DNA of 64,000 bases from Rhodobacteraceae bacterium CCMM004 (GCA_004005435.1 RZWH01000001.1:1-64000); one strand, 5' to 3'. Shown: positions 32,371-39,403, counted from the stretch's first letter. Numbers and translations: made by a program. Notes: generated by a model not told the origin, from the sequence alone.

Positions 32371-33336
32371 ATGCGGCGCACGACCCTCGCCCTGATCTGT
32401 GCCGCCGCGGCCACCCCGGCCGCGGCGCGCGAACCCCTGCTGACCCTGCCGGTGGACTGCACCCTCGGCGCCGACTGCTTCATTCAGAACTACGTCGACG
32501 CCGATCCTGGGCCGGGCCACGCAGACTTCACCTGCGGGCCGCTCTCCTATGACGGGCACAAGGGCACCGACTTCGCCGTCCCGAGCCTCGCCGCGATGCA
32601 GGCGGGCGTCGTCGTGCGCCCCGCCGCCAACGGCACGGTGATCGGCGTCCGCGACGGGATGCCCGATACCGGCCCCGACGCCAGCGGCGGCATCGACGGG
32701 CGCGAATGCGGCAACGGCGTCGTGATCCGCCACGGGGCCGGGTGGGAGAGCCAGTATTGCCACCTGCGCGAGGGCAGCGTGGCCGTCGAGATCGGCCAGC
32801 GGGTGAACCTGTCGACCGAGTTGGGCAAGATCGGACTGAGCGGCAACACCGATTTTCCCCACCTGCACATGTCGCTGCGCAAGGACGGCGAGACGGTGGA
32901 CCCTTTTGCCCCGGACGGCCGCGCCGACTGTGCCGAGGCGCCCACACGGACCCTGTGGCTCGACGCACCGGACTATGTGCCCGGCGGCATCCTCGACACG
33001 GGCTTCGCCGATGCGATCCCCGATTACGACCGGATCAAGGCGGGCTCGGCCGCAACCGACCGCCTGGCCCCGGACGCCCCCGCGCTCGTGCTCTGGGGCT
33101 ACCTCTTTGGCGGCCGCGCCGGCGACACCGTACGCCTGGTCGTCGAGGGGCCGAGCGGCGCGGTGCTCGATGAGACGGTGACGTTGGACAAGACCCAGGC
33201 GCAGCTCTTCCGCGCGATCGGACGGCGGCTGCCCGATGACGGCTGGACCCCGGGGTCCTACACCGGCACCGTCATCCACAGCCGCGGCGACACGCGGCTC
33301 GACGCGGCCGCCACCGCGGTGACCGTCGCCCGCTGA
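32371..33336 (+). CDS. M23-family (LytM-type) metallopeptidase
   Basis: A 321-residue secreted protein with a signal peptide (1-19, cleavage after PAAA). The zinc site of M23 peptidases is complete: H63-x3-D67 in GHKGTDFAVP and the HxH pair H164/H166 in 'DFPHLHMSLR', plus H131 in YCHLREG. It has 'SGNTDFPHLH' in place of the usual TG.STGPHLH. A C-terminal beta domain (about 215-318) has no catalytic residues. It probably cuts peptidoglycan cross-links. It follows clpA by 16 bases and converges on the MotB-like gene. Confidence 0.88.
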   Translation: MRRTTLALICAAAATPAAAREPLLTLPVDCTLGADCFIQNYVDADPGPGHADFTCGPLSYDGHKGTDFAVPSLAAMQAGVVVRPAANGTVIGVRDGMPDTGPDASGGIDGRECGNGVVIRHGAGWESQYCHLREGSVAVEIGQRVNLSTELGKIGLSGNTDFPHLHMSLRKDGETVDPFAPDGRADCAEAPTRTLWLDAPDYVPGGILDTGFADAIPDYDRIKAGSAATDRLAPDAPALVLWGYLFGGRAGDTVRLVVEGPSGAVLDETVTLDKTQAQLFRAIGRRLPDDGWTPGSYTGTVIHSRGDTRLDAAATAVTVAR

Positions 33337-33434: not shown

Positions 33435-36400
33435 TCAGCGCTCGGTCAGCTTCAACTCGATGCGGCGGTTCTGGGCGCGGGCGGCCGCGGTATTGCCGGT
33501 GGCGATCGGGCGGTACTCGCCAAAGCCGGTGGGGGCCAGCCGCTCTTCGGGAAAGCCCAACTCTTCGGACATGAACCGCACCACCGACAGCGCCCGCGCC
33601 TGGCTCAGCTCCCAGTTGTCGGCAAAGGGGCCGCCAAAGATGGGCACGTCATCGGTGTGCCCGTCGACCCGCACCACCCAGTCGATGCTCTCGGGGATCT
33701 CGTCCGCGACCTCGGACAGGAGCCGCGCCACCCGCGCCACCTGCGATCGTCCCGCCGCCGACAGGTCCGCCGACCCCGACGGAAACAGCACCTCGGAGGA
33801 AAAGACAAAGCGGTCCCCCACCACCTTGACTCCCTCGCGGTTGCCCAGCACGTCGCGCAGCCGACCGAAGAACTCGGACTGATAGCGTTCCAGCCGCTCC
33901 AGCTCGGTGGCCTCCAGGGCCACGCGCTTCTTCTCCTCGACCAGCGCGCGGGCCAGGGCGGCGTTCAGGTCCTGGCCCAAGGTCTCGATCCGCACCCGGG
34001 CCGCGGCGTCGCGCTCGGACGCGAGATCCAGAAGCCCCTGGAGCGTGTCGAGCTGCGACCGCAGTTCGGCCACCTGTTGGTTCAGTGCCTCGACCTGCCG
34101 TCGGCTTTCCTCCGACAGCGCGCGCTCGTCGGCCAGTTCGGTCTGCGCAGCCGCAAGCAGGGCCGCCCGGCGCTCGGCCTCGCTCAGCGCCTCGGCGCCC
34201 TGGCGCTCGGCCGCCAGGCGGGCGGCGAGCGCCGCCTCCAGCTCGCTGCGCAGATCGGCCTGGGCGTCGGCGGCGCCGGACAGCGCCGCCGCCTCGGCCT
34301 GGGCCGCGGCCAGCGCAGCGGCAAGGCGGTCGCGCTCGGTGGCCTCGCGGCCGGCCGCCGCGCGTAGCGCCTCGACCTCCGCCTCGGCCTCGGCCAGACG
34401 CGCACGGGCGTCCTCCAGCGACCCCTGATAGGCCATCTCGGCGGCCTTGGCCGTCTCCAGCGCGTCGCGGATCTGCGCCAACTCGCTCGTCGCGGCGTCC
34501 TCGCGCGCCAGCGCCTGGGCCAGCGTGTCCCGGGCGGCGTCGCGGTCGGCCTCGGCCTCGGCGCGGGCGGCCAGCGCCGCCTCCAGCGCCGCCTCGGCCC
34601 GGGTCAGATCGCCGGTCAACTGCGCCCGCACCTCCAGCGCCGCGGTCAGGGCCGCCTGTGCCGCATCCACCTCGGCCCGGGCGCTCAGCGCGGCGGAGAG
34701 ACGCGCGGTCAGCTCGGCCCCCTCGGCCTCGGCCGTCTCCAGCGCGGCGCGGGCGGCCGCCAGGTCGCCCTCGGTCTGGCTCTGGGCCAACAGTGCGGCG
34801 GCCAGGCGGGCGTTCAGGTCGTCGGCGTCGGCCGTCGCCGCGGCCAGGCGGGCGCGCAGGTCGTCGGCGGCCCGCTCGGCCTCGGCCAGTTGCGCGCCCA
34901 GGGTCTCGGCCACGCCGCGGGCGCTGTCGAGTTCGGTCGCCAGGGCGGCGCGGGCGGTCTCGGCCGCGGCCAGGTCGCCGGTTAGGCTGTCGCCCGCGGC
35001 CTCGGCAGCGGCCAGGCGCCGCGACAGGTCCGCGGTCTCGGCGCGGCTGGCGTCGAGTTCGGCGGCCAGCGCCGCGCGCGCCTGGGTCAGCGCGGTCAGG
35101 CTCTCGGCGCCCTCGGACTGGGCCAGGAGCGCCGCGGCGAGCTGCCGGTTCAGCTCTTCGGCGTCCACTGCGCTCTGCGACAGGCGGACGGTCAGGTCGT
35201 CGACTTCGGCCTGCGCGGCGGTCAGCCGGTCGCGGGTCTCGCCCAGGTCCTCGGCCTGGACCGACAGCGCGTCCTGGAGGCTCAGAACACGCCCCTCGGC
35301 GGTGCCCTGGGCGACGAGCGCGGCGGCGAGCTGGGTGTTGAGCCGCGCGGCCTCGGCGGCACTGCCGTCCAGCTCGGCGCGGAGCGCGGCGATCTCCTCG
35401 GCGCTGCGGTCCTGGCTGAGCAGCGCGGCGGCCAGCCGGGCGTTGAGATCGGCGCGGTCGTCTTCGGCGGCGTCGAGGGCGGCTTGCAGCGCGGCCATCT
35501 CTTCCTGGCTGCGCTCGCGGGCCAGGAGTGCGACGGCGAGGCGGGTGTTCAGCTCGGCACGCTCGGCCTGGGCCTGGGCCAGCTCGGCGCCGGTCTCGTC
35601 CCGCGCCAGGAGGGCCGCGGTCAGGCGGTCGTTCAGCGACGCCTCGGCCGACCGCGCCGCAGCGAGGAGGGTCAGCGTGTCCTCCGCGCGCTTGCGCTCG
35701 GCCTCCAGCGACAGGGTCATCGCGGTCAACTCGGCGTCGGCATCGGCCAGCCGCTCGCGCAGGGCCTGGGCCGCGGCAGCCTCGGCCAGGCGCGCCGCCT
35801 CCTCCTCGGACAGCGCCGTCTCCAGCTCCGACACCTCGGCCGACAGCGCCGCTGCCGCGGCCTCGCCCTCGGCCAGGTCGGCGCGCAGATCGGCGGTCAG
35901 CGCCTCCAGCGCCTCGCGCCGCGCAGCGGCCAGGCGCGCGGCCTCGGCGGCGGCGTCGATTTCGTCGCGCGCCTGGGCCAGCGCCAGGTTCAACGCCTCG
36001 CGGTCCGAAATCAGGTCGGCCCGCGCCGCCTCCAGATCGGCGACGGTGGCGGTGAGCGCGGCGGTGCGGTCGCGCGCCGCGTCGCGGTCGGCCAACAGCC
36101 CCGCGACCTGCTCTTCGAAGCTGGCGATGCGGTCGGCCTGGCGGGCGGCGTCCGCGGTGAGGCTGGAGATCAGGGTGTCCTGCTCGGCCGCCCGCGACTC
36201 CAGGTCGCCGATCAGCGCCGCCTGCCGTGCAGCGGTGTCGCGCGCGGTTTCCAGATCCGCCTCCAGGCCCGCGCGCAGCCCCTCCAGCTCGGCCGTCTTG
36301 GTCCGCTCCAGGCCCAGCATGCGCGACAGGCCCGCAACCTCTGCGGTCAGCGCGTCGAGCTCGGTGTCCTTGCCCGAAATCTCTTCGCGCAGCACGAACT

Positions 36401-36521
36401 GCACCACCATGAAGATGGTGAGGACGAACATCATCACCAGAAGGAGCGCCGTCATCGCGTCGACGAAGCCGGGCCAGATCGAGCTGGAAACCTGTCGGGT
36501 GGAGCGGCGGCTGAGCGGCAT
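33435..36521 (-). CDS. MotB-like/OmpA-domain protein with a giant coiled coil
   Basis: A 1028-residue protein. A short cytoplasmic N-terminus leads to one membrane helix (about 18-43) carrying Asp21 in 'WPGFVDAMTALLLVMMF', the position of the proton-carrying Asp in MotB. Residues about 45-865 are almost pure Ala/Glu/Leu/Arg heptads, with a recurring LNxRLAAALLAQ motif. The last 160 residues are an OmpA/MotB peptidoglycan-binding domain ('FSSEVLFPSGSADLS', 'VDGHTDDVPI', 'NWELSQARALSVV', 'NRRIELKLTER'). It lies 3 bases after the MotA/ExbB-like gene. It is likely the wall-anchored half of a proton-driven stator-like unit; function unknown. Confidence 0.85.
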   Translation of the reverse strand: MPLSRRSTRQVSSSIWPGFVDAMTALLLVMMFVLTIFMVVQFVLREEISGKDTELDALTAEVAGLSRMLGLERTKTAELEGLRAGLEADLETARDTAARQAALIGDLESRAAEQDTLISSLTADAARQADRIASFEEQVAGLLADRDAARDRTAALTATVADLEAARADLISDREALNLALAQARDEIDAAAEAARLAAARREALEALTADLRADLAEGEAAAAALSAEVSELETALSEEEAARLAEAAAAQALRERLADADAELTAMTLSLEAERKRAEDTLTLLAAARSAEASLNDRLTAALLARDETGAELAQAQAERAELNTRLAVALLARERSQEEMAALQAALDAAEDDRADLNARLAAALLSQDRSAEEIAALRAELDGSAAEAARLNTQLAAALVAQGTAEGRVLSLQDALSVQAEDLGETRDRLTAAQAEVDDLTVRLSQSAVDAEELNRQLAAALLAQSEGAESLTALTQARAALAAELDASRAETADLSRRLAAAEAAGDSLTGDLAAAETARAALATELDSARGVAETLGAQLAEAERAADDLRARLAAATADADDLNARLAAALLAQSQTEGDLAAARAALETAEAEGAELTARLSAALSARAEVDAAQAALTAALEVRAQLTGDLTRAEAALEAALAARAEAEADRDAARDTLAQALAREDAATSELAQIRDALETAKAAEMAYQGSLEDARARLAEAEAEVEALRAAAGREATERDRLAAALAAAQAEAAALSGAADAQADLRSELEAALAARLAAERQGAEALSEAERRAALLAAAQTELADERALSEESRRQVEALNQQVAELRSQLDTLQGLLDLASERDAAARVRIETLGQDLNAALARALVEEKKRVALEATELERLERYQSEFFGRLRDVLGNREGVKVVGDRFVFSSEVLFPSGSADLSAAGRSQVARVARLLSEVADEIPESIDWVVRVDGHTDDVPIFGGPFADNWELSQARALSVVRFMSEELGFPEERLAPTGFGEYRPIATGNTAAARAQNRRIELKLTER

Positions 36522-36524
36522 GGC

Positions 36525-37724
36525 CTAGCCCCTCCGGCCGCCGACCTGGCTGGCGCCGGCCTCGGGGCGGGACTGGTTGCGGATGGTCCGGGCGAGCTGG
36601 CGCATCTCCTGGCGCAGCTCCGTGGTGCTCTCCTGCCGCCCCGCCGAGACCTCTTCGAGCAGGCGCAGGAGCTGGACGTCGATGGAACGCAGGCGCATCC
36701 GGCTCTCGGCGTCCATGCCGGCGCCGTCCTCTGACTGGGCCTCCAGCACGTCGGCCAGACGCTCCTGCCCCTGCGCCACCCGCGTCAGCGCCGTGCCCAC
36801 CCCGGTCTCTGCCGCCATCTTGTCGGTCAGGGCCGACACCGCGGTGGCGAGGTCGCCCAGGCGCGTGTCCACCTCGGCGCGGGTGGCGTTGGATTCCCCC
36901 ACGATCTCCTGGAGGCGGTCCATCTGCTGGGCCATGTGCTCCATCATCGCGGCCATGACGCTCTGATCGCCGCCGCCCTCGCCCTCGCCCGCGGCAAAGC
37001 TCAGGCGGGTGATCGAGCTCAGCCACTCCTCCAACTCGCGGTAGAAGCGATTCTGGCTGTGGCTGGCGAAGAGTTCCAGGAGGCCGACGACCAGGCTGCC
37101 CGCGAGACCCAGGAGCGACGAGGCAAAGGCGACGCCCATGCCGCCCAACTGGCTCTCCAACCCGCTCATCAACCGACCGAAGACCGCCATGCCGTCCTCG
37201 CCCGGCGTGGGCGCCAGCCCGCGGATCGTCTCCACGATGGCCGGGACGGTGGTGGCGAGGCCATAGAAGGTGCCCAGAAGGCCGAGGAAAATCAACAGGT
37301 TGACAATGTACCGCGTGATGTCCCGCGCCTCGTCGATACGAGTGGCCACGGAATCGAGCATGGACCGCGACGAGGTGGCCGAGATCTGCATCCGCGTCGC
37401 CCGCGACCTGAGCAGAGCGGCCAACGGCGCCAGCAGCCGCGGCGCGCGCACGATCTCGTGCCCCGGCGTCTCGGCCGTGTAGCCCTCGATCCAGTTCACT
37501 GACTGGATGAGCTGATATTGCTGGTAGAAACAGGCCAACACGCCGATGATGAACACCACGCCGATGAACCCGTTGAGCCAGGGGTTGGCCAGGAACACCG
37601 GCGCCACCGACGGGAACGCCACATAGGCGCCGAGACCGACCAGGACGAGCACGGTCAGCATGGCGCCGATCTGTCTGATCGGTTGCGAGAAATACGCCCC
37701 CTCCAGGGCGTGTGGCGGTCTCAT
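36525..37724 (-). CDS. MotA/TolQ/ExbB-like proton channel protein
   Basis: A 399-residue inner-membrane protein. Two helices near the N-terminus (about 20-38 and 50-68) are followed by a cytoplasmic segment and then the diagnostic MotA/ExbB pair: 'YIVNLLIFLGLLGTFYGLATTVPAIV' (about 140-165) and 'GGMGVAFASSLLGLAGSLVVGLLELF' (about 190-215). The remaining 180 residues are cytoplasmic, partly coiled coil. It should assemble with the MotB-like protein 3 bases downstream into a proton-conducting complex. There are no flagellar, Tol, TonB or Zorya genes nearby to define the load it drives. Confidence 0.85.
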   Translation of the reverse strand: MRPPHALEGAYFSQPIRQIGAMLTVLVLVGLGAYVAFPSVAPVFLANPWLNGFIGVVFIIGVLACFYQQYQLIQSVNWIEGYTAETPGHEIVRAPRLLAPLAALLRSRATRMQISATSSRSMLDSVATRIDEARDITRYIVNLLIFLGLLGTFYGLATTVPAIVETIRGLAPTPGEDGMAVFGRLMSGLESQLGGMGVAFASSLLGLAGSLVVGLLELFASHSQNRFYRELEEWLSSITRLSFAAGEGEGGGDQSVMAAMMEHMAQQMDRLQEIVGESNATRAEVDTRLGDLATAVSALTDKMAAETGVGTALTRVAQGQERLADVLEAQSEDGAGMDAESRMRLRSIDVQLLRLLEEVSAGRQESTTELRQEMRQLARTIRNQSRPEAGASQVGGRRG

Positions 37725-37788: not shown

Positions 37789-38337
37789 TCAGTCTGCGTG
37801 ACGCTCTATGTCACGAACGCGCCGCGACAACCACTCCAGATCGCCGTCGCCGATCCCCAGTTCCGTCAAATGCGCGGCAGTGTTGTAGAGATACTCGGTG
37901 TTTGGGCCGCGCCCGCCGACCGCGTGGGCGATGACCTGGGCCTGCGCCTCCAGGGTCAGCCCGCCGCAATACTGCCGGTGCACGGGGTCGACGACATAGG
38001 CCACCGTTTCGATCCGCCGGCCGTCGCGGGTGGTGACGGGCAGCCGGCTCTCCAGATAGGCCGACGAGATCAGCTCGCGCGCCCGCAGCATCTCCAGCGT
38101 CGCCGCCTCCGTGCCGGGCGCGGCCCGGAATGCGACCCCGTCGCAATGGGCGCCCTCGGCGGCGTCGAGCGCCAGGACCAGGCCCGGCTCCGCTTCGGTC
38201 CCGCGGTGGTGGATCGACCACATGCAGAACGCCCGGTGATACCCGTCGAGCCGCGCGATCGCCCGCTCGGCCACATCGAAGCCCGGGTTCCAGATCAGCG
38301 AGCCGTAGCCGAAAACCCAGAGCGGCATGTCGGTCAT
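37789..38337 (-). CDS. ChaC-like gamma-glutamylcyclotransferase
   Basis: A 182-residue protein with the ChaC signature 'LWVFGYGSLIWNPGF' at the N-terminus, 'GYHRAFCMWSIHHRGT', 'GVAFRA', a conserved acidic position in the 'LRARELISSAYLE' region, and 'CGGLTLEAQAQVIAHAVGGRGPNTEYLYN'. Members cleave gamma-glutamyl peptides, including glutathione, releasing 5-oxoproline. The ATG at 38337 is preceded by AAGGACC; a longer frame to 38472 is rejected. It is divergent from the DUF2125 gene. Confidence 0.9.
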   Translation of the reverse strand: MTDMPLWVFGYGSLIWNPGFDVAERAIARLDGYHRAFCMWSIHHRGTEAEPGLVLALDAAEGAHCDGVAFRAAPGTEAATLEMLRARELISSAYLESRLPVTTRDGRRIETVAYVVDPVHRQYCGGLTLEAQAQVIAHAVGGRGPNTEYLYNTAAHLTELGIGDGDLEWLSRRVRDIERHAD

Positions 38338-38401: not shown

Positions 38402-39403
38402 ATGCGCATACTCGTGGCCATCGCCGTGATCGCGGCCGCCCTCTGGGGCGGATACTGGTTCGTCGGTGCCACGGCGGTCGAGCGGGCGCTGGCCGCCTGG
38501 ATCGCCGAGCGGCGGAGCGACGGCTGGGTGGCCGACTACGCCACACTCGACACCCGCGGCTTTCCCAACCGGTTCGACACCACGCTCACCGACCTGGACA
38601 TCGCCGATCCCGCCACCGGCTGGGCCTGGACCGCGCCGTTCTTCCAAATCCTGGCGCTCAGCTACCGCCCCACCCACGTGATCGCCGTCTGGCCCGAGGC
38701 GCAGAGCCTGGCCACGCCTCTCGAACGGATCGACATCGCCAGCGACACCTTGCGCGCCTCCGTGGTCTTCGAGGCCGACACGGCCCTGACCCTCGACCGC
38801 GCCACCCTGGTGGCCGAGGCGGTGCGGCTGAGATCGAACGCCGGGTGGAACGCAGCGCTCGCCGAGGCCCGGCTCGCCACGCGCCAGACCGCGGCGCGGC
38901 CGCTCGCCCACGACCTGGGCTTCGAGGCGCGCGATCTGGTGCTGGCCGAGGCGCTGCGCGACGGGCTCGACCCCACGGGCCTCTTGCCCGGCACGGTCGC
39001 GCGGCTCGCCGTGGATGCCACCGTCGCCTTCGACGCCCCCTGGGACCGGTTCGCGGTCGAGCGGGCGCGGCCCCAGCCCACCGCCATCGACCTGCGCCTC
39101 GCCGAGGCGCAGTGGGGCGACCTGGCGCTCAAGCTCGCGGGCAGCCTGGAGGTCGACGCCGAGGGGCGGCCAGAGGGCGAAATCGTGGTCAAGGCCACCA
39201 ATTGGCGCGACATGATCGCCATCGCCGTCGCTTCCGGCGCGCTGCCGGAGGGCATGGCGGGCACCCTGGAGGGCGGTCTGGGCCTCCTCGCCGGGCTGTC
39301 GGGCGACCCCAAGACGCTGGACGTGCCCCTGCGCTTTGCCGATGGGCGCGTGTCGCTCGGCCCCATTCCCCTGGGCCCCGCCCCGATTCTGCGGCTCAGA
39401 TGA
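38402..39403 (+). CDS. DUF2125 family protein
   Basis: A 333-residue protein with an N-terminal membrane anchor or signal (about 1-22) and the DUF2125 features 'DTRGFPNRFDTTLTDLDIADPATGWAWTAPFFQILALSYRP' (about 50-92), then repeated beta-rich segments. The domain is common in Rhodobacterales and of unknown function; an envelope location is expected. Its stop overlaps the start of the next gene (ATGA at 39400-39403), so the two are translationally coupled. Confidence 0.85.
   Translation: MRILVAIAVIAAALWGGYWFVGATAVERALAAWIAERRSDGWVADYATLDTRGFPNRFDTTLTDLDIADPATGWAWTAPFFQILALSYRPTHVIAVWPEAQSLATPLERIDIASDTLRASVVFEADTALTLDRATLVAEAVRLRSNAGWNAALAEARLATRQTAARPLAHDLGFEARDLVLAEALRDGLDPTGLLPGTVARLAVDATVAFDAPWDRFAVERARPQPTAIDLRLAEAQWGDLALKLAGSLEVDAEGRPEGEIVVKATNWRDMIAIAVASGALPEGMAGTLEGGLGLLAGLSGDPKTLDVPLRFADGRVSLGPIPLGPAPILRLR

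Follow-up and report, generated by a model that had tools for sequence, protein, structure and literature searches.

Known 5:2 motors serve swimming, gliding, nutrient uptake, outer-membrane upkeep, and phage defence. This motor family works through a conserved Asp and a wall-anchored B subunit (PMC12905483, PMC11890865). We analysed a 64,000-nucleotide stretch of Rhodobacteraceae bacterium CCMM004 (GCA_004005435.1, RZWH01000001.1:1-64000; hereafter the window), in which a gene pair of this kind occupies positions 33435-37724, with the A gene followed by the B gene on the minus strand and 3 bases between the open reading frames (ORFs). The preliminary description read the two genes as a MotAB-like pair, and the ORFs (with the coordinates and gap it gave), the membrane residue Asp21 and OmpA domain of B, and the predicted fold of A all agree with it. 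With moderate confidence, we propose that the pair forms a proton-driven, non-flagellar 5:2 motor in which the B dimer is a continuous parallel coiled coil running along the wall and anchored there by OmpA domains. The two genes are as follows:

33435..36521, minus strand: B subunit, MotB-like, 1028 amino acids (NCBIfam NF006542, PRK09039.1-1); ORF and profile match, E 6e-222
36525..37724, minus strand: A subunit, channel protein of the MotA/ExbB/TolQ/ZorA fold, 399 amino acids; ORF, homologues, AlphaFold model, and fold matches

Komagataeibacter hansenii, a non-flagellate alphaproteobacterium, carries an adjacent 348-amino-acid MotA with four transmembrane helices and a 321-amino-acid MotB with one transmembrane helix and an OmpA domain (PMC6570709). 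Overexpression of its motA/motB gave elongated cells and looser cellulose, green fluorescent protein (GFP) fusions formed foci at the cell pole, and increased motility was reported, unexplained, in a cell that has no flagellum (PMC6570709). The K. hansenii genes are probably a short-coil relative of the pair described here, and our literature searches found no other functional study of the pair. A C-terminal GFP on a Sec-exported periplasmic domain is normally non-fluorescent, so the MotB-GFP result needs care.

Profile searches place B in a known family, PRK09039: it matched NF006542 (PRK09039.1-1, "peptidoglycan -binding protein") over its full length at 739 bits (cut-off 388), and two distant relatives tested exceeded the cut-offs of the PRK09039 sub-models NF006543/NF006544. 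The NCBIfam entries PRK09039.1-1 to -5 are models of fixed length (342-350 and 627) that carry neither mechanism nor partner, and the coil-length freedom, heptad counting, and upstream third gene (P) reported below are not described there. No NCBIfam model was matched over its cut-off by A or P. The preliminary description missed that the family is known and widely conserved, that its coil length is variable, and that a third gene lies upstream in most of the class; the pair itself is known, and what is new here is the P gene, together with a parallel cable that is free in length yet counted in heptads.

The B subunit can be divided into five regions, listed here from the N-terminus:

36378..36482, minus strand: membrane helix region, residues 14-48, with the WPGFVD motif and Asp21; helix prediction and conservation
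35622..36386, minus strand: proximal coil, residues 46-300, conserved; conserved columns and length phase
34242..35621, minus strand: middle coil, residues 301-760, expandable; repeats of LNxRLAAALLAQ
33852..34241, minus strand: distal coil, residues 761-890, conserved; conserved columns and length phase
33465..33788, minus strand: OmpA/MotB wall-binding domain, residues 912-1019; Pfam OmpA, E 1.5e-15

A basic N-terminus precedes the single membrane helix, whose WPGFVD motif is invariant, with its Asp (Asp21) present in 110/110 homologues with a readable N-terminus. The wall-binding residues GHTD957, N969, L972, S973, R976, and NRR1018-1020 are at least 98% conserved. A membrane Asp combined with an OmpA-type wall domain marks B, as judged from its residues, as the B subunit of a 5:2 motor, and the coil lying between these two elements is predicted to be periplasmic, as the preliminary description had it.

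The coil spans residue 46 to approximately 885, giving ~835 residues and, at 0.1485 nm per residue, ~124 nm, close to the earlier figures of ~820 residues and ~120 nm. Proline is absent over 845 coil residues, which comprise 30% Ala and 16% Leu. Over the same 845 residues, the hydrophobic period is 3.50 residues with a power of 49.8, compared to a mean of 1.0 and a maximum of 10.0 in 2000 shuffled sequences; these shuffles ruled out a coil arising by chance. The heptad register stays the same between residues 46 and ~640, after which it shifts twice by +3. Copies of LNxRLAAALLAQ in the middle coil are spaced by 35, 35, 63, 42, 70, and 35 residues, each a multiple of 7.

Coil length across homologues was measured from the Asp to the YRSEFF landmark. 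It ranged from 171 to 2197 residues in the 109 first-round homologues with both landmarks, and the class-level sample extended the minimum to 164 residues; the window coil, at 863 residues by this measure, lies at the 91st percentile of the family, and the range across species corresponds to 21 to 320 nm. The taxonomic survey of coil length suggested at the outset thus found that length is not fixed, and even among 54 disjoint nearest-relative pairs, 48 differed in length. Internal repeats occur in some coils: in a B protein of 2363 residues (L059:8906-15997, plus strand), the coil has a repeat length of 113 residues (52% identity at this spacing), equal to 13 heptads and 2 hendecads, whereas the coil of L036 repeats every 109 residues (14 heptads and 1 hendecad) and that of L096 every 39 residues (4 heptads and 1 hendecad).

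Although length varied, it was counted in heptads. Among the distinct first-round coil lengths, 68/85 fell into classes 3, 6, and 0 modulo 7 (p 1e-10), while the control moduli 5, 6, 8, 9, 10, and 11 were flat. After adding 55 class-wide pairs, 50 of which fell into class 3 or 0, the 114 distinct lengths gave a chi-square p of 1e-18 modulo 7. The two ends were stricter still: the proximal coil length from the Asp equalled 1 modulo 7 in 79/84 loci, and the distal coil length to the YRSEFF landmark equalled 4 modulo 7 in 71/74 loci. The length of the A cytoplasmic tail, used as an internal control, was flat modulo 7. Differences between nearest relatives were multiples of 7 in 19 of the 48 length-differing pairs (p 1.5e-5), and short-coil families share the same heptad phase. 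Shifts of +4, hendecad-like, would link length classes 6, 3, and 0. These sequence counts indicate that coil length varies freely but almost only by whole heptads, with insertions and deletions (indels) preserving phase.

Charge patterns served as an independent test of how the coil associates. In a parallel two-stranded coil, position g pairs with e' at +5, which is not an intrahelical salt-bridge distance. The ratio of opposite to like charges in +5 g-e' pairs was 444:166 in the proximal coil, 233:104 in the middle coil, 204:96 in the distal coil, and 778:352 over the whole, while the opposite-charge share at most other spacings was 0.36-0.54. The charges thus match a parallel, in-register dimer in the proximal, middle, and distal thirds.

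The A subunit is predicted to contain four membrane helices (residues 15-46, 48-68, 139-164, and 195-222) and comprises two regions:

36987..37691, minus strand: conserved channel core, residues 12-246; invariant alignment columns
36528..36986, minus strand: helical cytoplasmic tail, residues 247-399; AlphaFold helices 253-306, 309-332, and 339-385

The pore motifs GLLGTF (Thr152) and GMGxAFxxS (Ser203) are invariant across 40 A homologues. A scored 17.0 bits against Pfam PF01618, under the cut-off of 22.9, and querying solved structures with the full A alignment retrieved only designed coiled coils and entries of that sort, drawn by the tail; a fold search was chosen for this reason. Structure prediction of the pair had been suggested earlier; AlphaFold models of the separate subunits had a mean predicted local distance difference test score (pLDDT) of 82.6 for A and low confidence for the single B chain. 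The best fold matches of the A model were TolQ (Z 12.0), ExbB (11.3), ZorA (10.2), and MotA (9.6). Because middling Z scores arise by chance for helical bundles, the assignment also leans on the pore motifs and the adjoining B; taken together, these identify A as a predicted MotA/ExbB/TolQ/ZorA-type channel with the pore Thr/Ser.

By analogy with the motor family, two B membrane helices would sit inside a wheel of five A subunits, and protons crossing at Asp21 of B and the Thr/Ser of A would make A turn relative to B. Beyond the membrane, both B chains would form one continuous, parallel, in-register coiled coil, at whose end paired OmpA domains would grip peptidoglycan. The periplasm is 15-40 nm deep (PMC12905483); in this species, a stiff coil of ~124 nm is several times longer than that and should therefore lie along the membrane, where it would follow the wall and hold or pull it some distance to the side. 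Since the unbroken coil is kept and its length is not, its part would be that of a cable or tether, not of a ruler. A stronger version of this proposal, to which we give only tentative credence, is that the wall-lying cable is torsionally continuous over up to hundreds of nanometres and delivers torque or tension to distant peptidoglycan, with continuity, not length, being preserved. The elongated cells and polar foci of K. hansenii led us to guess, with low confidence, that the role is to maintain the cell envelope or poles in a force-dependent way.

Several observations weigh against a continuous coil lying along the wall. At 21-40 nm, short members of the family could bridge the periplasm, and an arrangement along the wall thus cannot hold for every member. 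With B modelled as a single chain, AlphaFold (mean pLDDT 62.7) gives helix throughout apart from three breaks, at 404-426, 581-586, and 746-753, and this model permits a hairpin in which helices 427-580 and 587-745 (pLDDT ~75-87) are joined by a short loop. The middle coil, where length is gained, is also less strict than the ends, its lengths occupying three classes modulo 7. A chain that folds back, with helical hairpins packing within the periplasmic depth at any length, would accommodate both the hairpin and these three classes. We nevertheless rate such folding as quite unlikely, because the model contained a single chain with no partner to pair with and because register and charges pass through the predicted loops: the register runs unbroken through 404-426 and 581-586, and the middle-coil charges resemble those of a parallel dimer at +5 while being approximately even at nearly all other spacings. 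In addition, the g-g/e-e pairs of a hairpin centred on residue 583 would be unfavourable (1:6 at i+j=1166). Among the arrangements first suggested for the coil, running along the wall is therefore favoured by the register over ~600 residues, the heptad-phase indels, and the g-e' charges, and a coil broken into bundles is disfavoured; what backs folding back is the low-confidence single-chain model.

The heptad counts call for further caution on the same side, as homologues share ancestry and the counts overstate independence; the nearest-relative pair test and the flat controls serve as safeguards. Heptad-sized indels may also stem partly from unequal crossing-over between heptad-sized DNA repeats, a few of which were detected, rather than from selection. 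Carried further, this would make the pair a housekeeping stator-like system under ordinary drift, in which slippage of GC-rich heptad repeats changes a coil whose length is of no consequence. The 48 of 54 nearest-relative pairs that differ in length and the repeat spacings in multiples of 7 fit such drift, as does the account in PMC12204202 of Schendel et al. 1997, in which deletions at any place in Escherichia coli TolA domain II are tolerated up to the point where the domain is too short. However, slippage between DNA repeats leaves unexplained the near-absence of other in-frame indels at the coil ends: phase-breaking triplet indels are almost absent there (79/84 and 71/74 loci in phase), which slippage alone does not predict, and the same phase is kept in short-coil families. 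We regard drift as possible but doubtful, and retain the continuous wall-lying coil as the preferred reading.

To describe the distribution of the pair, we surveyed A and B across genomes. A was followed directly by B in approximately 166 loci, comprising 111 loci of the first round in which B was complete and more than 55 class-level loci; the 80 named loci included Roseovarius, Sulfitobacter, Salipiger, and Palleronia. A was found in 35/37 genomes of the same family and in 131/192 genomes spread across Alphaproteobacteria, nearly always in a single copy, whereas outside Alphaproteobacteria it occurred in only six genomes of a 299-genome phylum sample, one of them a weak match. Most of the Alphaproteobacteria sampled thus have the pair, one without a flagellum among them. 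FliG (FliG_C) was absent from the 99.99% complete CCMM004 genome, and only two PF01618 genes (TolQ/ExbB-type) were present elsewhere in it; a flagellar stator was ruled out on these grounds. An OmpA-domain protein (G000:C16:279649-280041, L153; open frame of 643 amino acids) lies ~5 kb from one of these other PF01618 genes.

Outside Rhodobacteraceae, the first distant loci examined commonly showed the gene order efp-suhB-P-A-B. On the same strand as A, the P gene immediately preceded it in 49/60 class-level loci and in 10 earlier distant loci (for example L062:9005-10345, minus strand, and L067:7124-8008, plus strand, with 57 further loci). The 28 P proteins inspected carry a signal peptide and end in an OmpA-like domain, with proline making up 9-39% of their residues, and 27 of them had no lipobox-like Cys. 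This domain resembles those of YiaD, OmpA, and Pal, with GHTD replaced by an A/GYA-like motif and the later Arg residues kept. In canonical OmpA-type domains, the GHTD Asp holds peptidoglycan. P is likely an outer partner of the motor. No strong P match was found in the 37 Rhodobacteraceae genomes, nor was an orthologue found in the window genome at E 1e-8, where the A2 hits were weak OmpA-like matches. Two genomes had a good P match and no A match (G040:C8:211945-212250 and G057:C14:8578-8853), so P may act without the motor, or the pair may be missing from these assemblies. A link between P loss and longer coils, examined outside Rhodobacteraceae, was rejected (medians 276 vs 280, Mann-Whitney p 0.76, with 13 values lacking P, one of which, L058, was estimated from total length); in this sample, though, P is missing from every locus whose coil exceeds 466 residues.

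Another explanation treats the pair as a sensor, with B as a slack cable: wall displacement, or new wall coming within reach, would lead to binding that opens the proton channel, turns the A tail, and produces a cytoplasmic signal. Such wall-triggered tail signalling has been proposed for Zorya, in which defence requires wall binding by ZorB as well as the tail of ZorA (PMC11890865), and A carries a helical cytoplasmic tail of ~150 residues, as ZorA does. However, the length of the A tail is unconstrained, no effector gene adjoins the pair, and the most conserved partner found, P, is secreted rather than cytoplasmic. We consider a sensor unlikely.

The closest genes to the pair in the window are ChaC, DUF2125, an M23 peptidase, and ClpA, two of which are detailed here:

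37789..38337, minus strand: ChaC-like gene directly upstream of A; start placed at the in-frame ATG at 38337
32371-33336, plus strand: M23 peptidase converging on B; near the pair in 45/120 loci

Profile scans of the neighbours found no flagellar, Tol, Ton, or Zorya genes adjoining the pair, as the preliminary description had stated. Tol-Pal was set aside as an identity for the pair, since TolA, TolB, and Pal were not among the scanned window genes or the conserved neighbours; with FliG also absent from the genome, the pair did not prove to be a known flagellar or Tol component. In Rhodobacteraceae the surroundings are syntenic: ChaC lies upstream in the same orientation, DUF2125 points the opposite way, ClpA lies downstream, and some loci also have the M23 peptidase. 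ChaC was present in 103/120 loci, and chaC-A-B is a probable operon in this family. The longest ORF of the ChaC-like gene begins at 38472, and the gene has no evident connection to the motor. The M23 peptidase could be a wall enzyme partnering the motor or a neighbour by chance.

Comparison with described systems shows both shared and distinct features. The best PADLOC matches of A and B were ZorA1 (1.3e-11) and ZorB (2.8e-19), and the pair shares with ZorAB of Zorya the channel fold, the membrane Asp, the OmpA wall-binding domain, and a helical tail on A. In ZorAB, however, the long extension is mainly on A in the cytoplasm, whereas here it is on B in the periplasm. These matches could suggest a chromosomal Zorya-like anti-phage motor, which we consider highly improbable: Zorya has the defence genes ZorC/D/E, whereas neither these nor any other defence gene adjoins the pair (the ClpA matches reflect shared AAA domains), which is a core gene set, single-copy, syntenic, and near-universal in its family, unlike defence systems.

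Flagellar MotAB/PomAB share the 5:2 motor fold, the Asp, the OmpA domain, and four transmembrane helices in A, and differ from the pair, which has no flagellum to serve (no FliG in the genome), an 835-residue coil before the wall domain, and an A subunit under the PF01618 cut-off. If its cable lies along the wall, the pair would be a periplasmic machine exerting force tens to hundreds of nanometres sideways. TolQRA-Pal, whose TolA, TolB, and Pal are not in the locus, is an envelope machine driven by protons, as the pair is proposed to be, and it too has an OmpA-like partner and a long periplasmic helix of variable length. TolA domain II varies between 110 and 335 residues and is described as reaching further than needed (PMC12204202). 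In the pair described here, by contrast, the wall-anchored subunit itself carries the cable, which is far longer, reaching 2197 residues.

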